This document shows, piece after piece, positions 1 through 15,724 of a stretch of 64,000 nucleotides of DNA. The position numbers were made by a program, and so were the translations under genes. Where the stretch lies: the NCBI GenBank assembly GCA_022652655.1, contig JALCRQ010000001.1:124001-188000 (forward strand), written 5' to 3'. Origin of the DNA: Oscillibacter sp. Lineage in GTDB: Bacteria > Bacillota > Clostridia > Oscillospirales > Oscillospiraceae. The stretch's first letter is position 1. Every line of letters starts with the position of its first letter. The notes beneath the pieces are model-generated. The model was given only the letters and a program-made list of their open reading frames with translations. It did not search any database and was not told the DNA's origin.

Positions 1-162
1 TTCCTCTATTTGCCAGCTCTCATAATAGCGGTACCCGCTCCGATCATCCCGAAAAGCCGGCTTAATAAGACTGCGTTCATCATAAAAACGCAGCTGTTTT
101 GCCGTAATGTTGCACAGCTTGGCCATTTGCCCGATCGTGTATCTGCTCAGATCTGAAACCAT
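1..162 (-). CDS. MerR-family transcriptional regulator, N-terminal part
   Basis: This is the first 54 codons of a gene that runs off the left edge, so it is absent from the ORF track. The translation has the MerR winged-helix signature YTIGQMAKLCNITAKQLRFY followed by DERSLIKP and a GYRYY motif, which is the DNA-binding helix-turn-helix and wing 1 of the family. The ATG is at 162 with a GGGGGA-type Shine-Dalgarno just upstream on the minus strand. The effector-binding C-terminus lies outside the window, so the ligand is unknown. It is divergent from the gcvPA-like operon, whose promoter has MerR-type spacing, so it is the obvious candidate regulator of that operon. Confidence 0.9.
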   Translation of the reverse strand, partial: MVSDLSRYTIGQMAKLCNITAKQLRFYDERSLIKPAFRDDRSGYRYYESWQIEE

Positions 163-495: not shown

Positions 496-526
496 TTGAC
501 TTTCCCTTAATGACAAGGTTTATAAA
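496..526 (+). promoter_or_regulatory. MerR-type promoter/operator of the gcvPA-like operon
   Basis: TTGACT (496-501) and TATAAA (521-526) are separated by 19 bp instead of 17. The spacer carries the dyad CCTT-N6-AAGG (505-518) centred within one base of its midpoint. An over-long spacer with a central operator is the classic arrangement that MerR-family proteins bind and untwist to activate transcription. A MerR gene is divergently encoded next door, which supports the reading. Confidence 0.7.
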
Positions 527-586: not shown

Positions 587-1990
587 TTGAGTACGCATTT
601 TGTCCATCCCTATATGCCCAATAGTGTGCCTGCGGTTGAGCAGAGCATGCTGCGTGAAGTTGGCGTATCCTCTGTTGAGGAGATCTACAAGTCCGTCATT
701 CCCGACAGCCTGCTTTTTAAAGGCAAAATGAATATTCCGCAGCCGATCACCAGTGAGTCGGCCCTGAAAAAACACGTAATGGGCTTGCTGAATCAGAATA
801 CCTCTACCGATGATGCAATCAGCTTTTTGGGCGCGGGCTGCTATAAGCGCTACGTTCCGGCCATTTGCGATGAGATTACCAACCGTTCGGAATTTCTGAC
901 AGCCTACTGCGGCGACACTTATTCGGATCACGGTAAGATGCAAGCCATTTTCGAGTATTGCAGCATGATGGCGGAACTGTTGGATGTGGACGTAGTCAGT
1001 TATCCGACCTATGATGCCGGCCAGGCGGTTTCCTCCTCTTTTCGGATGGCATTGCGCGTAAAAGAGGGCCGGGATGAAATCTTGATTCCTGCCAGCATGA
1101 GCCCGGAGATCCGTTCTCAGGCGGAAGCCTATTGCCAGGGCTTCGGCAAATTGGTACCGGTGCATGCGCCCAACGGCTTAATGGATGTGGCCGAGCTGGG
1201 AAAGAAGCTCTCCAATAAGACCGCTGCGGTGTACATTGAGAATCCCTCCTATCTGGGCGCGTTTGAACCCCACGCAAAGGAGATTATGGATCTGGCTCAT
1301 TCCGTCGATGCCATCGGGATCGTGATGGCGGAGCCGTCCTCTCTGGGCGTGGCGGAAGCACCGGCAAATTACGGAGCGGACATTACCTGCGGTGACATTC
1401 AGAGCCTGGGCATTCACATGCAGTACGGCAGCGGCTGCGGCGGTTACATTGCCATGCAGGATAATCCCGCGCTGGTAAACGAGCTGCCTACATATCTGTA
1501 TGGCATTGCCAAAAGCGAAAAAGACGGCCAGTTTGGCTGGGGGCGTGCGCTTTACTACAGATGCAGCCATGCGTCGCGCGAAAAAGCAAAGGAGTATTTT
1601 GGAACTGAGTCCGGCCTTTGGGCAATCGCCGCGGGAGTCTACCTTGCTGCTATGGGCCCGCAGGGGATGAAAGAACTGGGCGAGCGCATTATGGCATATG
1701 CCGGCTATGCAATTTCCAAACTGGCTGCTATTCCCGGCGTGAAGGTCAATGCGTCCAACGCAAAGGTGTTCCAGGAATTTATGGTGGACTTCAGCGGCAG
1801 CGGCATGACCGTAAAGGAAATCAACAAGAAACTGCTGAAATATGGAATTTTCGGCGGCGTGGATCTCTCAGTGAGTTTCCCGGAATACGGTCAGTGTGCA
1901 CTGTACTGTGTCAATGATACGACTTGCGCAGAGGATATTGACAAGCTATGCGATGCCCTGAAAGCAATTTTGGGAGGTGCAGCAAGATGA
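587..1990 (+). CDS. Glycine dehydrogenase (decarboxylating) subunit 1-like protein (GcvPA family), divergent
   Basis: This protein of 467 aa belongs to the fold-type I PLP enzymes of the glycine-decarboxylase P-protein alpha-subunit family. Family-like segments include FLTAY, FEYCSMMAEL, GADITCGDIQSLG and VYLAAMGPQGMKELGE. Several motifs that I recall as nearly invariant in true GcvPA are changed: YTPYQPEVSQG is YCGDTYSDHGK, NASMYDGATA is SYPTYDAGQA, and the TNICTNQ segment is FGTESGLW. The start is taken as TTG at 587 because AGGAGGGG ends 6 nt before it; the GTG at 572 would overlap that Shine-Dalgarno. It overlaps the next gene by ATGA. No gcvT, gcvH or lpd gene is nearby, so a glycine-cleavage role is doubtful. 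Confidence 0.85.
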   Translation: MSTHFVHPYMPNSVPAVEQSMLREVGVSSVEEIYKSVIPDSLLFKGKMNIPQPITSESALKKHVMGLLNQNTSTDDAISFLGAGCYKRYVPAICDEITNRSEFLTAYCGDTYSDHGKMQAIFEYCSMMAELLDVDVVSYPTYDAGQAVSSSFRMALRVKEGRDEILIPASMSPEIRSQAEAYCQGFGKLVPVHAPNGLMDVAELGKKLSNKTAAVYIENPSYLGAFEPHAKEIMDLAHSVDAIGIVMAEPSSLGVAEAPANYGADITCGDIQSLGIHMQYGSGCGGYIAMQDNPALVNELPTYLYGIAKSEKDGQFGWGRALYYRCSHASREKAKEYFGTESGLWAIAAGVYLAAMGPQGMKELGERIMAYAGYAISKLAAIPGVKVNASNAKVFQEFMVDFSGSGMTVKEINKKLLKYGIFGGVDLSVSFPEYGQCALYCVNDTTCAEDIDKLCDALKAILGGAAR

Positions 1991-3540
1991 ACATTGGCGG
2001 AAAAAGAGATTTTCATGAAGCAAGATGGGATGAGCCCATTTTAATGGAGATGGGCGAAAAAGGCCAGCGCGCCGTTTTGGTGGACGGCATTGAGCCCAAG
2101 GTCGCTGATTGTGCCGGCACGCAGGGCGCTGTCCCCGACGGTTACGCCCGCCGCCGCGCGCCCAAGCTGCCTGAAATCGGCCAGATGCAGCTGCAGAGGC
2201 ATTACCTGCGCCTGTCCCAGGAGACCATCGGCGCGGATATCAATATTGATATTGGCCTCGGAACCTGCACCATGAAGTACAATCCCAAGGTCAACGAGGC
2301 GTTCGTCCGCACGCCCAAGTTCTCTGAACTGCATCCTTACCAGGATCCCGAAACAGTACAGGGAACGCTGAAGATCCTCTATGACACCCAGGAGTACCTG
2401 AAGGAAATCTCCGGTATGGACAGCTTCTCGCTGAACCCGTCCGGCGGCTCCCAGGCAATTTTCTCCAATATTTCCGTGATCCGCGCCTACCACGAGTCCC
2501 GCGGCGAGGGAAAACAGCGGAACGAAATCATTACGACAATCCTCTCTCATCCCGGAAATGCCGGAGCGCCCTCCACGCTTGGCTATAAGGTCGTGACACT
2601 CTATCCCGATGAGAGCGGTATTCCCGACATTGAAGCGCTGAAAGCGGCTGTAAACGAGCATACGGCCGGACTGCTGATTACCAACCCGGAAGATACCGGC
2701 ATCTACAACGAGAAAATTCGTGAGTTTGTCGATATTGTTCACAGCGTGGGCGGCCTGTGCGTTTACGACCAGGCGAACCTGAACGGGCTGATGGGCATTA
2801 CAAGAGCCCGTGACGCCGGATTCGACCTTTGCCACTACAACCTGCATAAGACCTTTGCCTCTCCCCACGGTTCACAGGGCCCGGCCGCCGGTGCGCAGGG
2901 CTGCACGAAGGAGCTGGCAAAATTCCTGCCGGTTCCCACCGTGGAATTTGACGGAACCCAGTATTATCTGAACTATAACCTGCCGGACAGCATCGGAAAA
3001 ATCAGAAAATTCCTGGGCGTGCCGGCCGTGGTTGTCAGAGCCTATGCCTACATTCGCAGTTTGGGAGCAGATGGCCTGAAGCAGGTCTCTGAGCTGGCAA
3101 TTCTCAACAACAACTATCTGCTCAAGAAGCTGGAAGCTGTTCGCGGAATGAGCATGCCCCTGGCAAAGGGCAAGCGGAGACTGGAGCAGGCCCGCCTGAG
3201 CTGGGAGGGACTCCACAAGGATACCGGCGTGACCACCGATGATATTGACAGGCGCATTGTGGATTATGGCTTCCAGAGCTACTTCTCCAGCCACCATCCC
3301 AGAATCGTTCCCGAACCCTTTACGCCGGAAGCATGCGAGACTTACTCCAGAGAAGATATTGATGAGTATGCAGCTGCGCTGAATGCGATTTCGGAAGAGG
3401 CGTATGCCGATCCCGAGATTGTCAAGACGGCACCGCACAACGCTGCGCTTGCAACCAGGATGGATGAGGATGCCCTGGAAGATATCTCTCAGTTTGCCTG
3501 CACGTGGCGTGCCTACCAGAAGAAATGCGTTAAAAAGTAA
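1987..3540 (+). CDS. Glycine dehydrogenase (decarboxylating) subunit 2-like protein (GcvPB family), divergent
   Basis: This 517-aa protein is the partner of the preceding subunit and carries the PLP-lysine in HYNLHKTFASPHG (around residue 290). LGTCTMKYNPKVNE and LHPYQDPETVQG are classic GcvPB motifs. Other active-site motifs differ from what I know of the family: the PAAGAHGE region reads PSGGSQAI, SAHGSNPA reads SHPGNAGAPS, and the GGGGPG after the lysine reads GSQGPAAG. The ATG at 1987 overlaps the stop of the upstream gene and is preceded by GGGAGGTG. The track start at 1948 is inside the upstream gene and has no ribosome binding site. The tight coupling implies an alpha-beta complex; substrate unknown. 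Confidence 0.85.
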   Translation: MNIGGKRDFHEARWDEPILMEMGEKGQRAVLVDGIEPKVADCAGTQGAVPDGYARRRAPKLPEIGQMQLQRHYLRLSQETIGADINIDIGLGTCTMKYNPKVNEAFVRTPKFSELHPYQDPETVQGTLKILYDTQEYLKEISGMDSFSLNPSGGSQAIFSNISVIRAYHESRGEGKQRNEIITTILSHPGNAGAPSTLGYKVVTLYPDESGIPDIEALKAAVNEHTAGLLITNPEDTGIYNEKIREFVDIVHSVGGLCVYDQANLNGLMGITRARDAGFDLCHYNLHKTFASPHGSQGPAAGAQGCTKELAKFLPVPTVEFDGTQYYLNYNLPDSIGKIRKFLGVPAVVVRAYAYIRSLGADGLKQVSELAILNNNYLLKKLEAVRGMSMPLAKGKRRLEQARLSWEGLHKDTGVTTDDIDRRIVDYGFQSYFSSHHPRIVPEPFTPEACETYSREDIDEYAAALNAISEEAYADPEIVKTAPHNAALATRMDEDALEDISQFACTWRAYQKKCVKK

Positions 3541-3599
3541 GCTGCAATTTCTCAACTGCACATGCAATGAGCAGGAACCCAGTTAAGGAGTAGTTTGTC

Positions 3600-4826
3600 A
3601 TGCAATATTTAACAAACGTTGTTGTCGGAATATTCAGCACCCCGGTATTTTTGATTTTTTTGATTGCGGGTGTCGGATACTTTTTCGGCAGCATCAGGAT
3701 CAAAGGGATCAGCCTTGGAACTGCGGCAGTTTTTCTGGCCGCTTTGGTGTTTGGCCATTTTGGCTTCGCAGATAATTCCCTTCTCCACACCATCGGCCTG
3801 ATTACCACCCCTTATGAAACATTGAAGGCGGCGATGAGCCTGACGCAGGGTATCGGCCTGATCTGTTTTGTGACGGCAGTTGGGCTGATTGCCGGGCCGA
3901 AGTTCTTTCACAACCTTAAGCAGAATGCAAAGTCCTACGTTTTCCTGTCCGTCATCATCATCGGCCTGGGCAGCCTGACCTGCGTGCTGATCACTGCGCT
4001 GACAAAGGTGGATGCCGCGATGTCCGTCGGTCTGCTCTCGGGTGCATTAACGACAACGCCCGGCTTTGCAGCGGCGCAGGAAGCGGTTGTCGGCAATGAT
4101 TATCTTCTCAATGAGATCTCCGTGGGCCACGGAATTGCATACCCGTTCGGCGTTGTGGGCGTGGTTTTATTCGTTCAGATTGTTCCCAAGCTGCTTCATG
4201 TGAATATGGACGAAGAACGGATGAAGATCAATGCAGGCGCAGAGTTCAATCCCAAGCCCCAGCCGCAAAATCTGATTGAGATTGACCCGTTTGGCTTTGG
4301 CGCATTTGCGCTGACGGTGGTTGTCGGCGTACTGCTTGGAAAACTGTCCATTCCGCTTCCGGGAGGATCGAGCTTCTCCCTGGGCAATACCGGCGGAACG
4401 CTGATCATGGGATTGATTGTGGGGCACTTTGGACACATGGGCCGAATCAATTTGAAGGTCAGAACCGCTTCGCTGGAAACGTTCCGCGAGTTTGGGCTGA
4501 TGTTGTTTCTGATTGGCGCCGGCGTGCCCGGCGGGTCCGGATTCGTGGCCATTATTCAGGAGCAGGGCTTCATTCTCTTTATCTATGGCGCATTGATGAC
4601 GCTGCTTCCCATGGTTGGCGGTTATCTGTTCGCTCGGTATGTGCTGAAGCTGGGGCTGCTGAACAATCTCGGCTCCATTACCGGAGGCATGACCAGCACC
4701 CCGGCGCTGGGCGCGCTGATCAATGTGGCGCAGACAGACGATGTCGCGTCTGCTTATGCCGCAACATATCCCTGCGCATTGGTCCTCGTTGTTTTAGCTT
4801 CGCAATTTATCGTAACGCTGATGTAA
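3600..4826 (+). CDS. AspT/YidE-type transporter (Asp-Al_Ex family)
   Basis: The 408-aa protein is almost entirely hydrophobic, with about ten or more membrane segments. It contains the duplicated signature of the aspartate:alanine exchanger family, with SGALTTTPGFAAAQEA in the first half and TGGMTSTPALGALINVAQ in the second. Family members such as AspT usually carry central cytoplasmic RCK_C (TrkA_C) domains; here only a short hydrophilic linker (about residues 200-225) lies between the halves. AAGGAG precedes the ATG. It sits 60 bp after the GcvPB-like gene in the same operon. AspT exchanges a substrate amino acid for its decarboxylation product, so an exchange role here is plausible but inferred. 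Confidence 0.8.
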   Translation: MQYLTNVVVGIFSTPVFLIFLIAGVGYFFGSIRIKGISLGTAAVFLAALVFGHFGFADNSLLHTIGLITTPYETLKAAMSLTQGIGLICFVTAVGLIAGPKFFHNLKQNAKSYVFLSVIIIGLGSLTCVLITALTKVDAAMSVGLLSGALTTTPGFAAAQEAVVGNDYLLNEISVGHGIAYPFGVVGVVLFVQIVPKLLHVNMDEERMKINAGAEFNPKPQPQNLIEIDPFGFGAFALTVVVGVLLGKLSIPLPGGSSFSLGNTGGTLIMGLIVGHFGHMGRINLKVRTASLETFREFGLMLFLIGAGVPGGSGFVAIIQEQGFILFIYGALMTLLPMVGGYLFARYVLKLGLLNNLGSITGGMTSTPALGALINVAQTDDVASAYAATYPCALVLVVLASQFIVTLM

Positions 4827-4894
4827 AGTGAGCCTCGCAACTTCAATTTTAGGGAAGAAATTGAATGATCTTATCGAGAGAAAGGGGAAAGAAA

Positions 4895-6094
4895 ATGACA
4901 TCACTGATTAGTTCTGAAAATACATGGGTGTTGTGGGCAATTCTAGTGGGCATTGCCGCTCTGAGCATCTTTCTGGAACAAAAGTACAAATGGGCAAACA
5001 AAGTAACCGGCTGTGTCATCGCGCTGCTCGCAACAATGATCCTGGCGAACCTGCATGTTATCCCCACGAACTCTGCGACATATGACAATGTGTGGGGCTA
5101 TGTTGTCCCGCTGGCCGTTCCTCTGCTGCTGTTCAACTGCGATATCAGAAAGATCGGCAAGGAAACCGGAAAGCTTCTGGTTGTCTATCTGCTCAGCGCA
5201 GTTGGCACATGCTGCGGCGCGATTGTCGGCGCCGTTTGCCTGGGCAAGTACATTCCGAGCCTCAAAGCAATCTCGGCTATGTATACCGGCACCTATACCG
5301 GCGGTTCTGTGAACTTCGCAGCCATGGCAGACGCATTTCATGCTCCCGCCGAGCTGGTCTCTGCCGGCGTTGTGGCCGACAACCTGCTGATGGCATTGTA
5401 CTTCTTTGTCCTGATCGCCATCCCCAGCATCGGCTTCTTCCGCAAGAATTATAAGCATCCCATTCTTGACGAGCTGGAAAAGAACACCTCGGCGGATGGA
5501 AACATGGTCTCGTCTTACTGGAAGGCAAAGCCTATTGCGCTGAAGGATATTGCATTTGACATGGCCGCAGCATTCATTATCGTTGCTGTGTCCAAGGCGA
5601 TTGCGGGCTTCTTCGCCGCCTTGATTCCCACCAGCAATACAGTCGGCAGCATTTTCAACACCATGCTCGGCAACCAGTATCTGATTATCACAACCCTGAC
5701 AATGCTTCTGGCGACCTTCCTGCCAAAACTCTTTGGCCAGGCTCCCGGCGCCAGCGAAATCGGTACTTTCCTCATCTATATTTTCTTTGCCGTAATCGGT
5801 GCACCCGCTTCGATTGGCGACATCATCAAAAACTCCCCCATTCTGTTTGCATTTGCAGCGATCATCGTCTTTGCAAACATGCTGATCACGTTCCTTTTCG
5901 GAAAGATCTTCAAGTTCAATCTGGAGGACATGATTATTGCATCCAACGCCAACATCGGCGGCCCGACGACTTCCGCAGCAATGGCAATTTCCAAGGGCTG
6001 GGTCAACCTGGTTGGTCCTGCCATGCTGGTAGGCACGCTTGGCTACGTTCTGGGCAATTATCTTGGCATCATTGTGGCCAACATCGTTGCTTAA
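4895..6094 (+). CDS. DUF819 family integral membrane protein (YjcL-like)
   Basis: This 399-aa protein has about ten predicted membrane helices and the DUF819 pattern of glycine-rich half-motifs, MYTGTYTGGSVNFAAMADAF in the N-terminal half and NANIGGPTTSAAMAISKGW in the C-terminal half. DUF819 proteins are putative transporters without an assigned substrate. I chose ATG 4895 because AAAGGGGA lies just before it; ATG 4865 is an alternative that adds ten polar residues. It is the last gene of the operon and follows the AspT-like gene by about 70 bp, so the operon pairs one PLP enzyme with two different permeases. Confidence 0.8.
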   Translation: MTSLISSENTWVLWAILVGIAALSIFLEQKYKWANKVTGCVIALLATMILANLHVIPTNSATYDNVWGYVVPLAVPLLLFNCDIRKIGKETGKLLVVYLLSAVGTCCGAIVGAVCLGKYIPSLKAISAMYTGTYTGGSVNFAAMADAFHAPAELVSAGVVADNLLMALYFFVLIAIPSIGFFRKNYKHPILDELEKNTSADGNMVSSYWKAKPIALKDIAFDMAAAFIIVAVSKAIAGFFAALIPTSNTVGSIFNTMLGNQYLIITTLTMLLATFLPKLFGQAPGASEIGTFLIYIFFAVIGAPASIGDIIKNSPILFAFAAIIVFANMLITFLFGKIFKFNLEDMIIASNANIGGPTTSAAMAISKGWVNLVGPAMLVGTLGYVLGNYLGIIVANIVA

Positions 6095-10921: not shown

Positions 10922-13210
10922 TTATTTCTTGCAGAGCTCCTCTGGGGACGGGGTGTCGTCCTGCGGCTTGGCTTCCGGAGCCTGGGGCGCTTTGCCGGCG
11001 CCCTTTTTCCGCCCCAGCGCCGCCTTGAGGCCGCCTGCGGGCTTCTTCCGTCCGGCGGCTTCCAGGAAGCTGCCGGGGCAGGCGGGGGCGGCGGTGCCTG
11101 CTTCCGGGGCGGCGGGCTGCTTTTTCGCCCTGACGCGCTCCGGCTTCGGCGTTCTCCAGTACCGGCTGGTGTGGGCAAACACCGGCTCGCAGACGCACAG
11201 CACGGAGGGGAGGATGAAGATGCTGACCACCGCGGAGATCAGCGCGCCCCGGGCCAGCATGGTGCAGATGGAGCCGATGATCTCAATGTCGGAGATGATG
11301 CTGACGCCCATGGTGGCGCAGAACAGCACCAGGGAGCTGGTGAGGATGGAGGGATCGGCGGTGGTGGCGGCGATCTCAATGGCCTCCTCCCGGGTTTTCC
11401 CTGCCTGCAGCTCCTCCCGGAAGCGGCTGGTCATCAAAATCGCGTAGTCCACCGTGGCGCCCAGCTGGATGCAGCCGATAACGGTGGGGGACACGAAGGG
11501 AATGACGGTGCCGGTAAAGTACGGGATTCCCTGGTTGATGAAGATGGCCAGTTCAATGGTGGACACCAGCGCGATGGGGATCGTGAGGGACTGAAAGACA
11601 ATGGCGATAATCAGGAAAATCGCCGCAATGGAGATGTAGTTGGTGACCTTGAAGTCTACGGCGGAGGTCTTGATCAAATCGTTGGTCAGGGCGGCCTCGC
11701 CGGTGATAAGGGCCTTGGAATCATAGGATTTGACCAGCTTGGTGAGCTTGTCGAGCTGCGTTGCCACCTGGGTGGTGGCCGTGTTGTAGCTGGTGTTCAC
11801 CATCATCATCTGATACCCGCCCTGCTTGAGCATGTTTTTGACCTCGTCCGGGATGAAGAAGTCCGGAATACCCGTGCCGATGAGGGAGTGGTAGGAGACG
11901 ACGGAGGTGACGCCGTCCAGATCCTTTATCTGGTTTTCCAGGTCGTTCATATCCGTGGAGGAGACGTCGTCCCGCAGGAGGATGAAGTGGGAGGAGGCCA
12001 TGTCGAAGTCGCTTTTGAGCTTGTCGTTGGCTACGATGGAGGGGAGATTCTGGGGCAGAGACTCATCCAGTTTGTAGTAGACGCTGGTCATGTTCTGGGC
12101 AAAGGAGAAGGGAATGAACAGCAGCAGGAACAGCACCACAAACCGCTTGCGGCGGTGAATGATTCCGCGGTTCATGCGGGTGGTGTCGGGGATCAGCGTC
12201 TTGTGGAGATGCTTGGTGATCTGCTTATCGAAAAGCAGCAGTACGGAGGGAAGCACAAGGATCACGCACAGTACGCCGATGGCCACGCCCTTGGCCATGA
12301 CGATGCCGATGTCCCGGCCCAGCGTCAGCTGCATGAAGCACAGCGCCACAAATCCGGCGATGGTGGTCAGGCTGCTGCCGGAGAGGGAGGTAAAGGCTGC
12401 CGCGATGGATGCCGCCATGGCGTCCCGCTTGTCGTCGTAATGCTCCCGTTCCTCCACATACCTTCGGTAGAGGAAGATGGAGTAGTCCATGGTGACACCC
12501 AGCTGCAGGACACCCGCAATGGCTTTCGTAATATAGGAGATCTGCCCCATAAAGAGGTTGGTGCCAAAGTTGTAGAGCACAGCCAGGCCGATGCACAGCA
12601 GAAACGCCGCCGGCAGCACCGTGGATTCCAGGGTCAGCAGCATGGCTGCCAGCGAAAGGGCCACGGCCAGCCCTACATAGACGGGCAGCTCCCGGTCCAC
12701 CAGATCCTTGGTGTCCTTGATGACGACGGAGAAGCCCGCGAGAAAGCACTGCTTGTTGCACAGGGAGCGGATGTCCCGGATGGCGTGCATGGTCTCGTCC
12801 GAGGCGCCGGCCTGGCTGTACTGGATAATCATCATGGTGGCCTTGCCGGAGTAAAACATGTCGCGCATATTGGCGGGGATAAAGTCCGTGGGGATCTGAA
12901 TACCCACCAGATTGGAGATCCATACGGCGTGGCTGACGCCGGGGACGTCCTCAATCTGCTCCAGCAGCCGGTTGGTGTAGTCCGCCGGCATATCCTCCAC
13001 CACCAGCATGCTGGTGGCGGCCATCTGGAACGGTTCCTCCAGCAGTTTTTCACCCTGGGAGGACTCCAGATCCTCCGGGAGGTAGGTCAGAATATCATAG
13101 TTGATACGGGTGGAGAGAGAGGCCAGAATCGACGGAATCAGCAGCAAGAGGGCGATAGCCACCACCAGCCTGGGCTTCCGGGTCAGGCCGTGGGCAATTT
13201 TTTTTATCAC
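10922..13210 (-). CDS. RND/MMPL superfamily exporter
   Basis: The 762-aa protein has the two-fold MMPL/SSD layout: TM1, an extracellular domain of about 140 residues, five TM segments, then TM7 after RRKRFVVLFLLLFIPF, a second extracellular domain and five more TM segments. QLGVTMDYSIFLYRRY (first half) and QLGATVDYAILMTSRF (second half) are the paired TM4/TM10 motifs with the proton-relay aspartates. The C-terminal 90 residues are a charged, Ala/Pro/Lys-rich cytoplasmic tail. It is predicted to export a lipid or peptide using the proton gradient. It follows the secreted coiled-coil gene by 42 bp and shares its promoter. Confidence 0.88.
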   Translation of the reverse strand: MIKKIAHGLTRKPRLVVAIALLLLIPSILASLSTRINYDILTYLPEDLESSQGEKLLEEPFQMAATSMLVVEDMPADYTNRLLEQIEDVPGVSHAVWISNLVGIQIPTDFIPANMRDMFYSGKATMMIIQYSQAGASDETMHAIRDIRSLCNKQCFLAGFSVVIKDTKDLVDRELPVYVGLAVALSLAAMLLTLESTVLPAAFLLCIGLAVLYNFGTNLFMGQISYITKAIAGVLQLGVTMDYSIFLYRRYVEEREHYDDKRDAMAASIAAAFTSLSGSSLTTIAGFVALCFMQLTLGRDIGIVMAKGVAIGVLCVILVLPSVLLLFDKQITKHLHKTLIPDTTRMNRGIIHRRKRFVVLFLLLFIPFSFAQNMTSVYYKLDESLPQNLPSIVANDKLKSDFDMASSHFILLRDDVSSTDMNDLENQIKDLDGVTSVVSYHSLIGTGIPDFFIPDEVKNMLKQGGYQMMMVNTSYNTATTQVATQLDKLTKLVKSYDSKALITGEAALTNDLIKTSAVDFKVTNYISIAAIFLIIAIVFQSLTIPIALVSTIELAIFINQGIPYFTGTVIPFVSPTVIGCIQLGATVDYAILMTSRFREELQAGKTREEAIEIAATTADPSILTSSLVLFCATMGVSIISDIEIIGSICTMLARGALISAVVSIFILPSVLCVCEPVFAHTSRYWRTPKPERVRAKKQPAAPEAGTAAPACPGSFLEAAGRKKPAGGLKAALGRKKGAGKAPQAPEAKPQDDTPSPEELCKK

Positions 13211-13252
13211 TTAGAACACACCTTCCGTTTCAAAATCGCGGCGCGTCCGCCC

Positions 13253-15724
13253 TTAATGCCGGAAAATACCGGTTATGGCCTGCCCAATGTGCTTAAAGAG
13301 GTTGGCGACGCGGCTCCAGAAGGTGCCCTGGTCGGCGGCTTTTTCTTTCTGGGCGGCCGTGTCCTCATCCGGCAGCTTGATCTCCTGGGAGCGGATCAGA
13401 ATCTGCACACTCTGGGGAGAGCCGTTCTGCTGGGAGGTCAGGGACACCGCCTGGGCGGTGGAATCCATGTTCAGCAGGTTGTCGACGTCGCCGGTATGGT
13501 CGTTCCACTCGTCCCGGATGATGCTGCTGATGTTGTTCTTGGCGCTGCGGATGTCGTCGGTGGTGTCGATGCTGGCGGCCGCCTTGCGCAGGGTGGAGGA
13601 CAGCCCGCTCAGCGTTTTCTTGGTGCCGGAGTCCAGCTGGGCGCCGCTCTTTTTGGCCAGCGCCTCAAAGGAGGAGAGAAAGCCCCTGGTGTCGCTCACG
13701 GTGGAGGTCAGGGAGGAGACAATGGTCTTGGTGTCCTCCAGAGTGGCCTTGAGATCCGGCACGTAGCGGTTCACCGTGTCGTCCAGCGCCTGCACCTGAT
13801 CCAGCAGTGTGCTGGAGGTTTTCAGCGCCTGATCCGCCACGTCGATGAGAGAGTCCAGATCGTCCATGGTGTCGCCGGCCAGCCGGCTGAGCTTGGTGAG
13901 ATCCTTGGAAAGACCGTCGCTGCCCATGACGCTGCACAGGTCGCTGAGATTGGCCAGCAGTCCGTCTCCGGTGTTGGAGGCGGACAGCGCCCGGAGCTTT
14001 TCCAGCTGCTGCGCGTTGGCCGCGTAGGTTTTCTTATTTCCCAGCACCTCACTGAGATTGGAACCGGTGGAGTTGACGTCCTGCATCATCTGCACGCCGG
14101 TAATGAACTGTTCCTCGCTCATGGTGCCCGCGCCGCAGACCGTCCCGTAGACGGCCTTGAAGATCTGGGCCTTGCCCCAGTTGGCCGCCTGCTCCTGGGA
14201 GGGTGCGGAGGCCAGTCCCGCCAGGGTGGCGAGGCCCTGGGCCTGGGTGTGGATGGCGGTCAGCTCATCGGCCGTTAGGGCGCTGCCCTTGGTGTTGGTC
14301 TCCTGAATAATCAGCGTGGCCTCGATAAAGCCTGTGAGATCCAGTTCTTTGCCCTGTCCCACGGCCTCGTATGTATTGTGCAGGCCCTTGGCCTGTTCCG
14401 TATTCGCCCGGAGCTCATCCGGCGTCAGGCCGTTGACGGTGACCCAGTCGCCGTGGAGCTGAATATCCAGATCCTTCATGGAGCTACGCAGCGCCGTGAT
14501 GCTGCTGCGCAGGCTGTCGGCATGCTGCCCCATTTTCTCCAGATCCTCCTGGAGATCGCCGTCGTCGTCGGTGGTGCCGGTGAGCTTTTTGACGTCCTTC
14601 ATATCGTCCTGGAGATAACCCAGATATTTCCGGGTGTCAGAGATCTGATCCTTCAGGCTGACGGCGGACTTGGTCACGGCGGTGAGATCGTCCGACACAT
14701 CCGTCACCGCCTGGGAGGCGGCGTCCAGATGGCCGGGCAGCGTGGCCAGGGAGGCGTTCAGGCTGCCCAGATCGCCGATGACCTTGTCGGCCTCACCGTA
14801 GACCGCGCCCTTGCCGGCGGAGATGGTGCCCCGGGCCTCGTTGAGCTCATCCAGGCCCCTGGCGGTATCCCGCAGGCTGCCGGTCATGTTGTCCAGGGAG
14901 TTGAGGAAGGTGTCCAGGCTGCCGTCCAGCTTGTCGTAATCGCTTTCAATATCGGCCTTCTTGTCCTTGAGGTCGGCGATCTGATCCAGCTGCTTCAGCG
15001 TGGCCGGCACCATTAAATAGGTAATGCCGTCAAACTGAAAGGAGTCGGCGCCCACCTCAATGGTGAAGTGCTGCTCCTCACCGGGCAGAACCACAAAGAG
15101 CACCATCCGGAGGTTGCCAACCAGCTGCACCTGGGCGCCCTCCGCCTTCAGGGACAGGATGTCGTCCTGATTGAAAAGGGCCATAGCCTCCAGAGTGTAG
15201 TTGTTTTTGGAGTAGTCGCTGGCGGCGGTATTGGGGACAATGTCCAGATTGATCTGCACCACGCCGGTCTTCCCGGCCAGCTCCTCCGCCTTGGTGGGCA
15301 CACCGTTGAGCTTGTAGCTCATGGAGATCGTCCAGGGCAGGGCGGTAAAGGGCTGGGAGGTCTTGCCCTCAAAATAGAAGTGGTCCGGCGCGTTCTTGCC
15401 GAAGTCGAACGTGGTGGCGCCGCCCGCCGTAACGGGCTTGGTGCCGTCCGTCAGGTTGTTGACGGAGTCATAGGTGCCGTAGTCCGTCAGCTTGTCGGCG
15501 CCGTTGAGGGCGTAGCTTTTGACCACGCTGCCGTTGGTCAGGTTGCCGTAGTAATCCAGCGTCGCGTAGTAGGCCTCGTCGAACGTGGGGGTTACGCCGT
15601 TGCCGATCTTCGCGGCGGCGGCGCCCGGCACCATCGTCAAAGACAGGGCGGCAGCGCAGGCCAAAGCCAGGGTGCGGGCCCAGAGCGTGCGGGAGTTCCG
15701 TCCGCCGGTGCAGAAGCGTTTCAT
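13253..15724 (-). CDS. Secreted coiled-coil partner of the MMPL exporter (YhgE/Pip-like heptad protein)
   Basis: The 823-aa protein has a signal peptide (hydrophobic core ALACAAALSLTMV, cleavage near GAAAA), a beta-rich N-terminal domain of about 240 residues, then about 500 residues of heptad-rich helices with many DLxxL and SDTxxxL segments, and an amphipathic C-terminus ending FKHIGQAITGIFRH. The helical style recalls the extracytoplasmic part of YhgE/Pip proteins, which often pair with MMPL exporters, but the flanking membrane domains are missing. I placed the start at 15724, 8 nt after GGAGG; the track ATG at 15739 overlaps that site. It is the first gene of the operon, under TetR-type control. 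Confidence 0.75.
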   Translation of the reverse strand: MKRFCTGGRNSRTLWARTLALACAAALSLTMVPGAAAAKIGNGVTPTFDEAYYATLDYYGNLTNGSVVKSYALNGADKLTDYGTYDSVNNLTDGTKPVTAGGATTFDFGKNAPDHFYFEGKTSQPFTALPWTISMSYKLNGVPTKAEELAGKTGVVQINLDIVPNTAASDYSKNNYTLEAMALFNQDDILSLKAEGAQVQLVGNLRMVLFVVLPGEEQHFTIEVGADSFQFDGITYLMVPATLKQLDQIADLKDKKADIESDYDKLDGSLDTFLNSLDNMTGSLRDTARGLDELNEARGTISAGKGAVYGEADKVIGDLGSLNASLATLPGHLDAASQAVTDVSDDLTAVTKSAVSLKDQISDTRKYLGYLQDDMKDVKKLTGTTDDDGDLQEDLEKMGQHADSLRSSITALRSSMKDLDIQLHGDWVTVNGLTPDELRANTEQAKGLHNTYEAVGQGKELDLTGFIEATLIIQETNTKGSALTADELTAIHTQAQGLATLAGLASAPSQEQAANWGKAQIFKAVYGTVCGAGTMSEEQFITGVQMMQDVNSTGSNLSEVLGNKKTYAANAQQLEKLRALSASNTGDGLLANLSDLCSVMGSDGLSKDLTKLSRLAGDTMDDLDSLIDVADQALKTSSTLLDQVQALDDTVNRYVPDLKATLEDTKTIVSSLTSTVSDTRGFLSSFEALAKKSGAQLDSGTKKTLSGLSSTLRKAAASIDTTDDIRSAKNNISSIIRDEWNDHTGDVDNLLNMDSTAQAVSLTSQQNGSPQSVQILIRSQEIKLPDEDTAAQKEKAADQGTFWSRVANLFKHIGQAITGIFRH

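Follow-up and report, generated by a model that had tools for sequence, protein, structure and literature searches.

Gene Organization of the Locus

The 64-kb window (the whole stretch of DNA analyzed, from an Oscillibacter genome) begins with part of a divergently transcribed regulatory gene, followed by a promoter and four genes on the forward strand, the first two of which encode homologs of the two subunits of the glycine cleavage P-protein:

1–162, minus strand: 5′ part of a gene encoding a MerR-family regulator with a weak GyrI-like ligand domain, divergently transcribed
496–526, plus strand: MerR-type promoter, TTGACT and TATAAA separated by a 19-bp spacer that contains a CCTT-N6-AAGG dyad
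587–1990, plus strand: GcvPA-like subunit (PA) of the divergent branch, TTG start at 587 with ribosome site GGAGGGG
1987–3540, plus strand: GcvPB-like PLP-binding subunit (PB) of the divergent branch, start codon overlapping the PA stop in ATGA
3600–4826, plus strand: Asp-Al_Ex transporter of 408 amino acids with two repeats and without TrkA_C (Pfam, 226 bits)
4865–6094, plus strand: DUF819 permease (Pfam, 327 bits)

The first-pass annotation had described GcvPA-like, GcvPB-like, Asp-Al_Ex exchanger, and DUF819 permease open reading frames, and all four are present at these coordinates on the same strand; every motif that it quoted (YCGDTYSDHGK, SYPTYDAGQA, PSGGSQAI, SHPGNAGAPS, and NLHKTFASPHG) is likewise found. 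The mechanical open reading frame of PA begins with GTG at 572, and TTG at 587 is the likeliest start; PB likely starts at the ATG at 1987, which overlaps the PA stop, and a longer open reading frame extends from 1948. PA matches the Pfam model GDC-P (182 bits), and PB matches GcvP2_C and Aminotran_5 together with a sub-threshold GDC-P match. Because both subunits exceed the NCBIfam equivalog cut-offs (NF001696/NF003346; 429 bits against a cut-off of 364 for GcvPA and 556 bits against 441 for GcvPB), they are automatically annotated as glycine dehydrogenase subunits gcvPA/gcvPB, and NCBI annotation gives these names to other members of the branch as well. The reported absence of gcvT, gcvH, and lpd near the operon holds, and GCV_H was not found anywhere in the assembly of the window's genome (G000, 94% complete).

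The MerR regulator is 294 amino acids in length, and its gene extends approximately 720 bases to the left of the window edge. A 19-bp spacer is a known hallmark of MerR-activated promoters, and the pattern TTGACN-N19-TATA has a single match on both strands of the 64-kb window, located between the MerR gene and PA. In Evtepia and Fretibacterium, the pair is preceded by the elements TTGACC-N19-TATACT and TTGACA-N19-TAGAAT, respectively, and MerR homologs are also encoded within 6 kb of it (loci L033 and L035). Given that MerR and Asp-Al_Ex genes are found near the pair in all three organisms, this sub-branch has its own type of inducible operon.

Phylogeny and Distribution of the Divergent Branch

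Canonical GcvPA proteins of the same bacterial family share 29–36% identity with the window PA, and a scan of GTDB genomes yielded 10 relatives with 46–72% identity. A profile built from these 10 relatives and run on 399 genomes of the window's phylum identified 27 genomes with scores of 601–842 bits and a partial second copy at 594 bits, with the next best match at no more than 382 bits. In concatenated PA+PB trees (IQ-TREE) of 34 and then 41 divergent pairs with 15–20 canonical pairs, the divergent pairs all fall on one side of a long-stem branch with 100% SH-aLRT support in both trees; in an initial FastTree of PA, rerooting left the branch with an anomalous local support of 0.27. The GcvPA/GcvPB tree proposed in the first-pass annotation thus places the window pair outside the canonical clade, where it groups with Evtepia gabavorous and then, less firmly, with Fretibacterium. 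The divergent branch is a real P-protein subfamily without a description in the literature searched, in which we found no paper on it.

Members of the branch are present in Bacillota, Synergistota, a KSB1 MAG, Proteobacteria, Actinobacteria, and a haloarchaeon. Only 2/394 genomes of the window's order carry the branch, a patchy occurrence as expected for horizontal spread, and copies of the pair are encoded on plasmids of Paracoccus, Gemmobacter, Rhodococcus, Sphingomonas, Antarctobacter, Roseicitreum, and one haloarchaeon. Genome G806 holds the second copy known from the window's family (L123/L124), in which PA contains one in-frame TGA.

Hosts Lacking H Protein and Lipoate Attachment

The P-protein is classically linked to the lipoyl H protein. 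Among the 27 branch genomes, four that are 94–99% complete (the window's genome, G124, G167, and G420) encode neither a member of the LplA/LipB family nor a credible GcvH. The GCV_H matches in G167 and G420 are fragments of only 22–24 bits, and G124 has a contamination of 7%; G384 is also negative for both, yet is 61% complete. GcvH and lipoate ligase are present in most of the remaining branch genomes, so that use of an H protein is possible in many of them, and 15 of the 27 genomes additionally encode a canonical pair. Based on the hosts without H protein and lipoate attachment, and given that many others also carry the canonical pair, we regard the branch as a paralog able to live without H protein.

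The first-pass annotation had proposed that gcvT and gcvH elsewhere in the same genome would speak against its reading; the window's genome encodes no GcvH and no lipoate ligase. Its sole GCV_T-domain protein, a 481-residue open reading frame flanked by TetR-like and MFS-like genes (L032, G000:C62), was considered as gcvT and rejected because it is demethylase-like by sequence. Genome G395 encodes five full-length GCV_H genes and has six matches to the lipoate ligase family.

Active-Site Substitutions

We defined an invariance set of 93 PA and 154 PB columns that are at least 95% identical across 44 canonical sequences. The branch has lost 29 of these columns in PA and 47 in PB, many in favor of another fixed residue, which indicates that the altered motifs of the first-pass annotation are not noise. 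In human GLDC, the active site includes Tyr161, Tyr164, Thr894, and Trp897, and a docking model predicts an H-protein interface that includes Ile372, Arg373, and Lys376 (PMC7259800); we mapped these residues onto the branch by alignment through PDB chains. The principal sites in the window pair are as follows:

893–934, plus strand: rewritten active-site motif of PA, canonical YTPYQPEVSQG replaced by YCGDTYSDHG
1559–1606, plus strand: canonical REQHIRRxKATSNICT segment of predicted H contact (human I372, R373), here RCSHASREKAKEYFGT
2689–2694, plus strand: Glu248-Asp249 of PB, fixed in the branch, canonical Asn-Thr
2848–2850, plus strand: PLP lysine 301 of PB (NLHKTF), kept
3178–3195, plus strand: R411-x-E413-Q414-x-R416 of PB, canonical C-x-H-E-F-V
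3292–3297, plus strand: His449-His450 of PB in the human Trp897 region, canonical Tyr-Phe

The PLP core of PB (Lys301, Asp274, and His201) is retained. The position of human Tyr164 (Tyr98 in Thermus thermophilus) is deleted in 42/42 branch members, and Tyr161 is also lost in the plasmid members displayed. The equivalents of Ile372-Arg373 are mostly Ala/Gly-Ser, and residues E307, Q308, I310, and R311 (T. thermophilus) of the QHIRR H-contact motif are replaced in nearly all branch members. Fixed changes in Thermus numbering are S103 to D and Q203 to E in PA, and T214 to D, C373 to R, V378 to R, Y405 to H, and M415 to T in PB. Judged from the alignment, the new charged and polar residues fit a polar cosubstrate or acid–base catalysis better than a lipoyl arm, and the two new invariant arginines, R411 and R416, which are both present in 41/41 branch members, could hold a retained carboxylate. 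Structure prediction of PA and PB with 11 sequences gave a mean pLDDT of 58 and 61, respectively, a quality insufficient for interpreting the active site; the predicted structure of PB confirms the P-protein fold (1WYU, Foldseek E value of 3e-31).

Gene Neighborhoods

We compared gene content up to 6 kb away from the pair between 41 divergent and 25 canonical loci. The canonical pairs are accompanied by gcvT in 24/25 and by gcvH in 25/25 loci, whereas neither gene is found near any of the 41 divergent pairs, as the first-pass annotation had proposed to check for such a clade. The divergent pairs instead neighbor a gene encoding an ATP-NAD-kinase-like protein in 29/41 loci versus 0/25 canonical loci (P = 2e-9, which is only indicative because related loci are not independent samples); an earlier count of 1/25 canonical loci became 0/25 at a stricter E value. 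A dehydrogenase, either an SDR or a Tdh-like Zn-ADH, is encoded near 24 of the divergent pairs and none of the canonical pairs. Together, a kinase-like and/or a dehydrogenase gene is present in 37/41 loci, and the window is among the four with neither. Given that the window's genome encodes no relative of the kinase-like protein (best E value of 0.098) and only distant Zn-ADH paralogs (27–30%), the common module is incomplete in this organism; the better of these Zn-ADH paralogs is encoded directly before Kbl. Our literature search found no paper on the function of COG3199/AcoX-type proteins.

The remaining neighbors vary. A canonical glycine cleavage (GCS) operon adjoins the divergent pair in five Bacillota loci (L040, L075, L077, L090, and L095), and GCS and serine dehydratase genes lie beside the pair in L124 of the window's family. 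Acid-activating enzymes (acyl-CoA synthetase or CoA-transferase) are encoded in L034, L141, and L142, a number that is small and not significant. A primary-amine oxidase gene adjoins the pair in L141. In L091, the 3′ end of a divergent PA-PB-kinase set is directly followed by a gene for MtbB, a dimethylamine methyltransferase, that carries an in-frame TAG (a pyrrolysine site; 12998–14389) and is succeeded by genes encoding a corrinoid protein, a Na+/H+ antiporter-family protein, and an MTTB-family protein. The transporters differ by lineage and include APC, MFS, ABC, SSS, TRAP, NhaC, tripartite tricarboxylate, Asp-Al_Ex, and DUF819 types, several of which were recognized from sequence only.

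The Asp-Al_Ex transporter of the window matches PF06826 in two stretches corresponding to its two repeats, has no TrkA_C match, and scores 147 bits against the AspT equivalog model, which has a cut-off of 547. The first-pass annotation had asked whether the clade co-occurs with Asp-Al_Ex or DUF819 genes; each is linked to the pair in only 3/41 loci, Asp-Al_Ex in the window, Evtepia, and Fretibacterium, and DUF819 in the window, L034, and L035. The Asp-Al_Ex gene of Fretibacterium lies on the strand opposite to the pair, and judging from sequence the visible neighbors of the nearest relatives of the exchanger elsewhere resemble genes of acyl-CoA metabolism, not amino acid decarboxylases. The pair-associated DUF819 gene of Candidatus Fermentithermobacillus is split, its two pieces being separated by transposase-like open reading frames (L034:4595–8906).

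Proposed Function

The separate branch and the hosts without a trace of the lipoate carrier make a different reaction in amino acid breakdown probable. We posit that the pair is, somewhat more probably than otherwise, a P-protein paralog independent of H protein and lipoate that forms the core of a mobile module for amino acid breakdown. PLP on Lys301 would form an aldimine with a small α-amino acid, and a bond between Cα and carbon would be broken as in P-protein; the carbanion would then take up a proton, or water would capture the leaving group, with no transfer to a lipoyl disulfide. Such a mechanism could take the form of decarboxylation to an amine or of splitting a β-oxo amino acid, supplied by the partner dehydrogenase, into glycine and an acid. 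We consider these two versions about equally likely; neither accounts for the role of the kinase-like protein. The equivalog scores, the GcvH and lipoate ligase of many branch genomes, and the incomplete module of the window's genome speak against the paralog reading. In the window, the MerR protein presumably responds to an inducer, and transport of the substrate and/or product would fall to the Asp-Al_Ex and DUF819 proteins. We give an even chance to the wider proposal that a P-protein-type enzyme of bacteria and archaea has left the lipoyl arm for a new reaction, such as β-oxo hydrolysis or lipoate-free decarboxylation, aided by the kinase-like protein, in hosts to which databases ascribe glycine cleavage.

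In the β-oxo version, which we advance tentatively, the dehydrogenase would oxidize a β-hydroxy amino acid, PA-PB and water would release glycine and an acid, and CoA enzymes would activate the acid. This version explains the dehydrogenases near 24 of the 41 pairs, the glycine-using operons beside six, and the acid-activating enzymes in three loci, although the last are too few for significance; the two invariant arginines may serve the carboxylate. Against it, the window operon includes no dehydrogenase, and Kbl handles the threonine case in the window's genome. The pair may equally be a simple lipoate-free decarboxylase without antiport, a possibility that we hold just as tentatively, in which the amine would be metabolized further or exit otherwise. 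Decarboxylation is the chemistry of the family, and the amine oxidase of L141, the methylamine methyltransferases of L091, and the variable transporters are consistent with this proposal; however, the amine-handling neighbors are single cases, and this version offers no explanation for the recurrent dehydrogenase and kinase-like partners.

The first-pass annotation favored a cycle in which PA-PB decarboxylates, for example, glycine and the Asp-Al_Ex protein exchanges the amino acid for the amine, providing proton-motive force or acid tolerance. Its premises of a pair outside the canonical clade, without gcvTH nearby and in a host lacking GcvH and lipoate ligase, are upheld; antiport as the general function is not, given that the usual partners are the kinase-like protein and the dehydrogenase, the transporters vary, and the exchanger fails the AspT model. 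Such a cycle may operate in the window's own organism, in which the exchanger shares an operon with the pair and a lipoyl acceptor is lacking; the Asp-Al_Ex genes of Evtepia and Fretibacterium, the chemistry of the family, and the amine oxidase adjoining one branch member also agree with it. We nevertheless judge it rather improbable and rank it below the two versions above because the exchanger seldom accompanies the pair (and is on the opposite strand in Fretibacterium), is not AspT by model or domains, and has relatives near acyl-CoA-like genes.

That the pair is an ordinary, fast-evolving glycine cleavage P-protein served by an H protein encoded elsewhere is highly improbable: the equivalog scores and the GcvH of most branch genomes agree with it, but it is at odds with the four nearly complete genomes without credible GcvH or lipoate ligase, the coexisting canonical pairs, the absence of gcvT and gcvH within 6 kb, and the replaced tunnel and contact motifs, and is contradicted for the window's genome unless the missing 6% holds both GcvH and lipoate ligase. 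Replacement of Kbl in threonine breakdown is unlikely, and was rejected, because the window's genome encodes a Kbl that scores above its family cut-off, beside the better Zn-ADH match.

Relation to Known Systems

The pair resembles the P-protein of T. thermophilus (1WYT/1WYU; approximately 30–40% identity) in its two subunits, PB fold, PLP Lys/Asp/His residues, and subunit order in the operon. It differs in its separate branch, in some hosts without H protein and lipoate, in the loss of the active-site tyrosine and predicted H contacts, in new invariant Asp, Glu, Arg, and His residues, and in its neighbors. Similar to the system of AspT and aspartate decarboxylase, the window places an exchanger with Asp-Al_Ex repeats next to a PLP enzyme whose family comprises decarboxylases; however, its exchanger of 408 residues lacks TrkA_C, fails the AspT model, and is linked to the P pair in only 3/41 loci. 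Several branch loci parallel the Tdh-Kbl threonine cleavage system, in which a Tdh-like dehydrogenase adjoins a fold-type I PLP enzyme, but the PLP enzyme of the branch is P-protein-like and the window's genome holds Kbl too. Finally, the kinase-like partner presumably resembles AcoX of acetoin operons in its NAD_kinase Pfam domains and in being encoded with a dehydrogenase in an operon for catabolism, although the kinase-like protein partners a PLP P-like pair and not a TPP/lipoyl complex.

A widespread paralog in lipoate-free hosts would show a rerouting of P-protein chemistry and would give the kinase-like protein a context. Many genomes are probably misannotated as having glycine cleavage, an error that misdirects metabolic modeling of gut bacteria and anaerobes.
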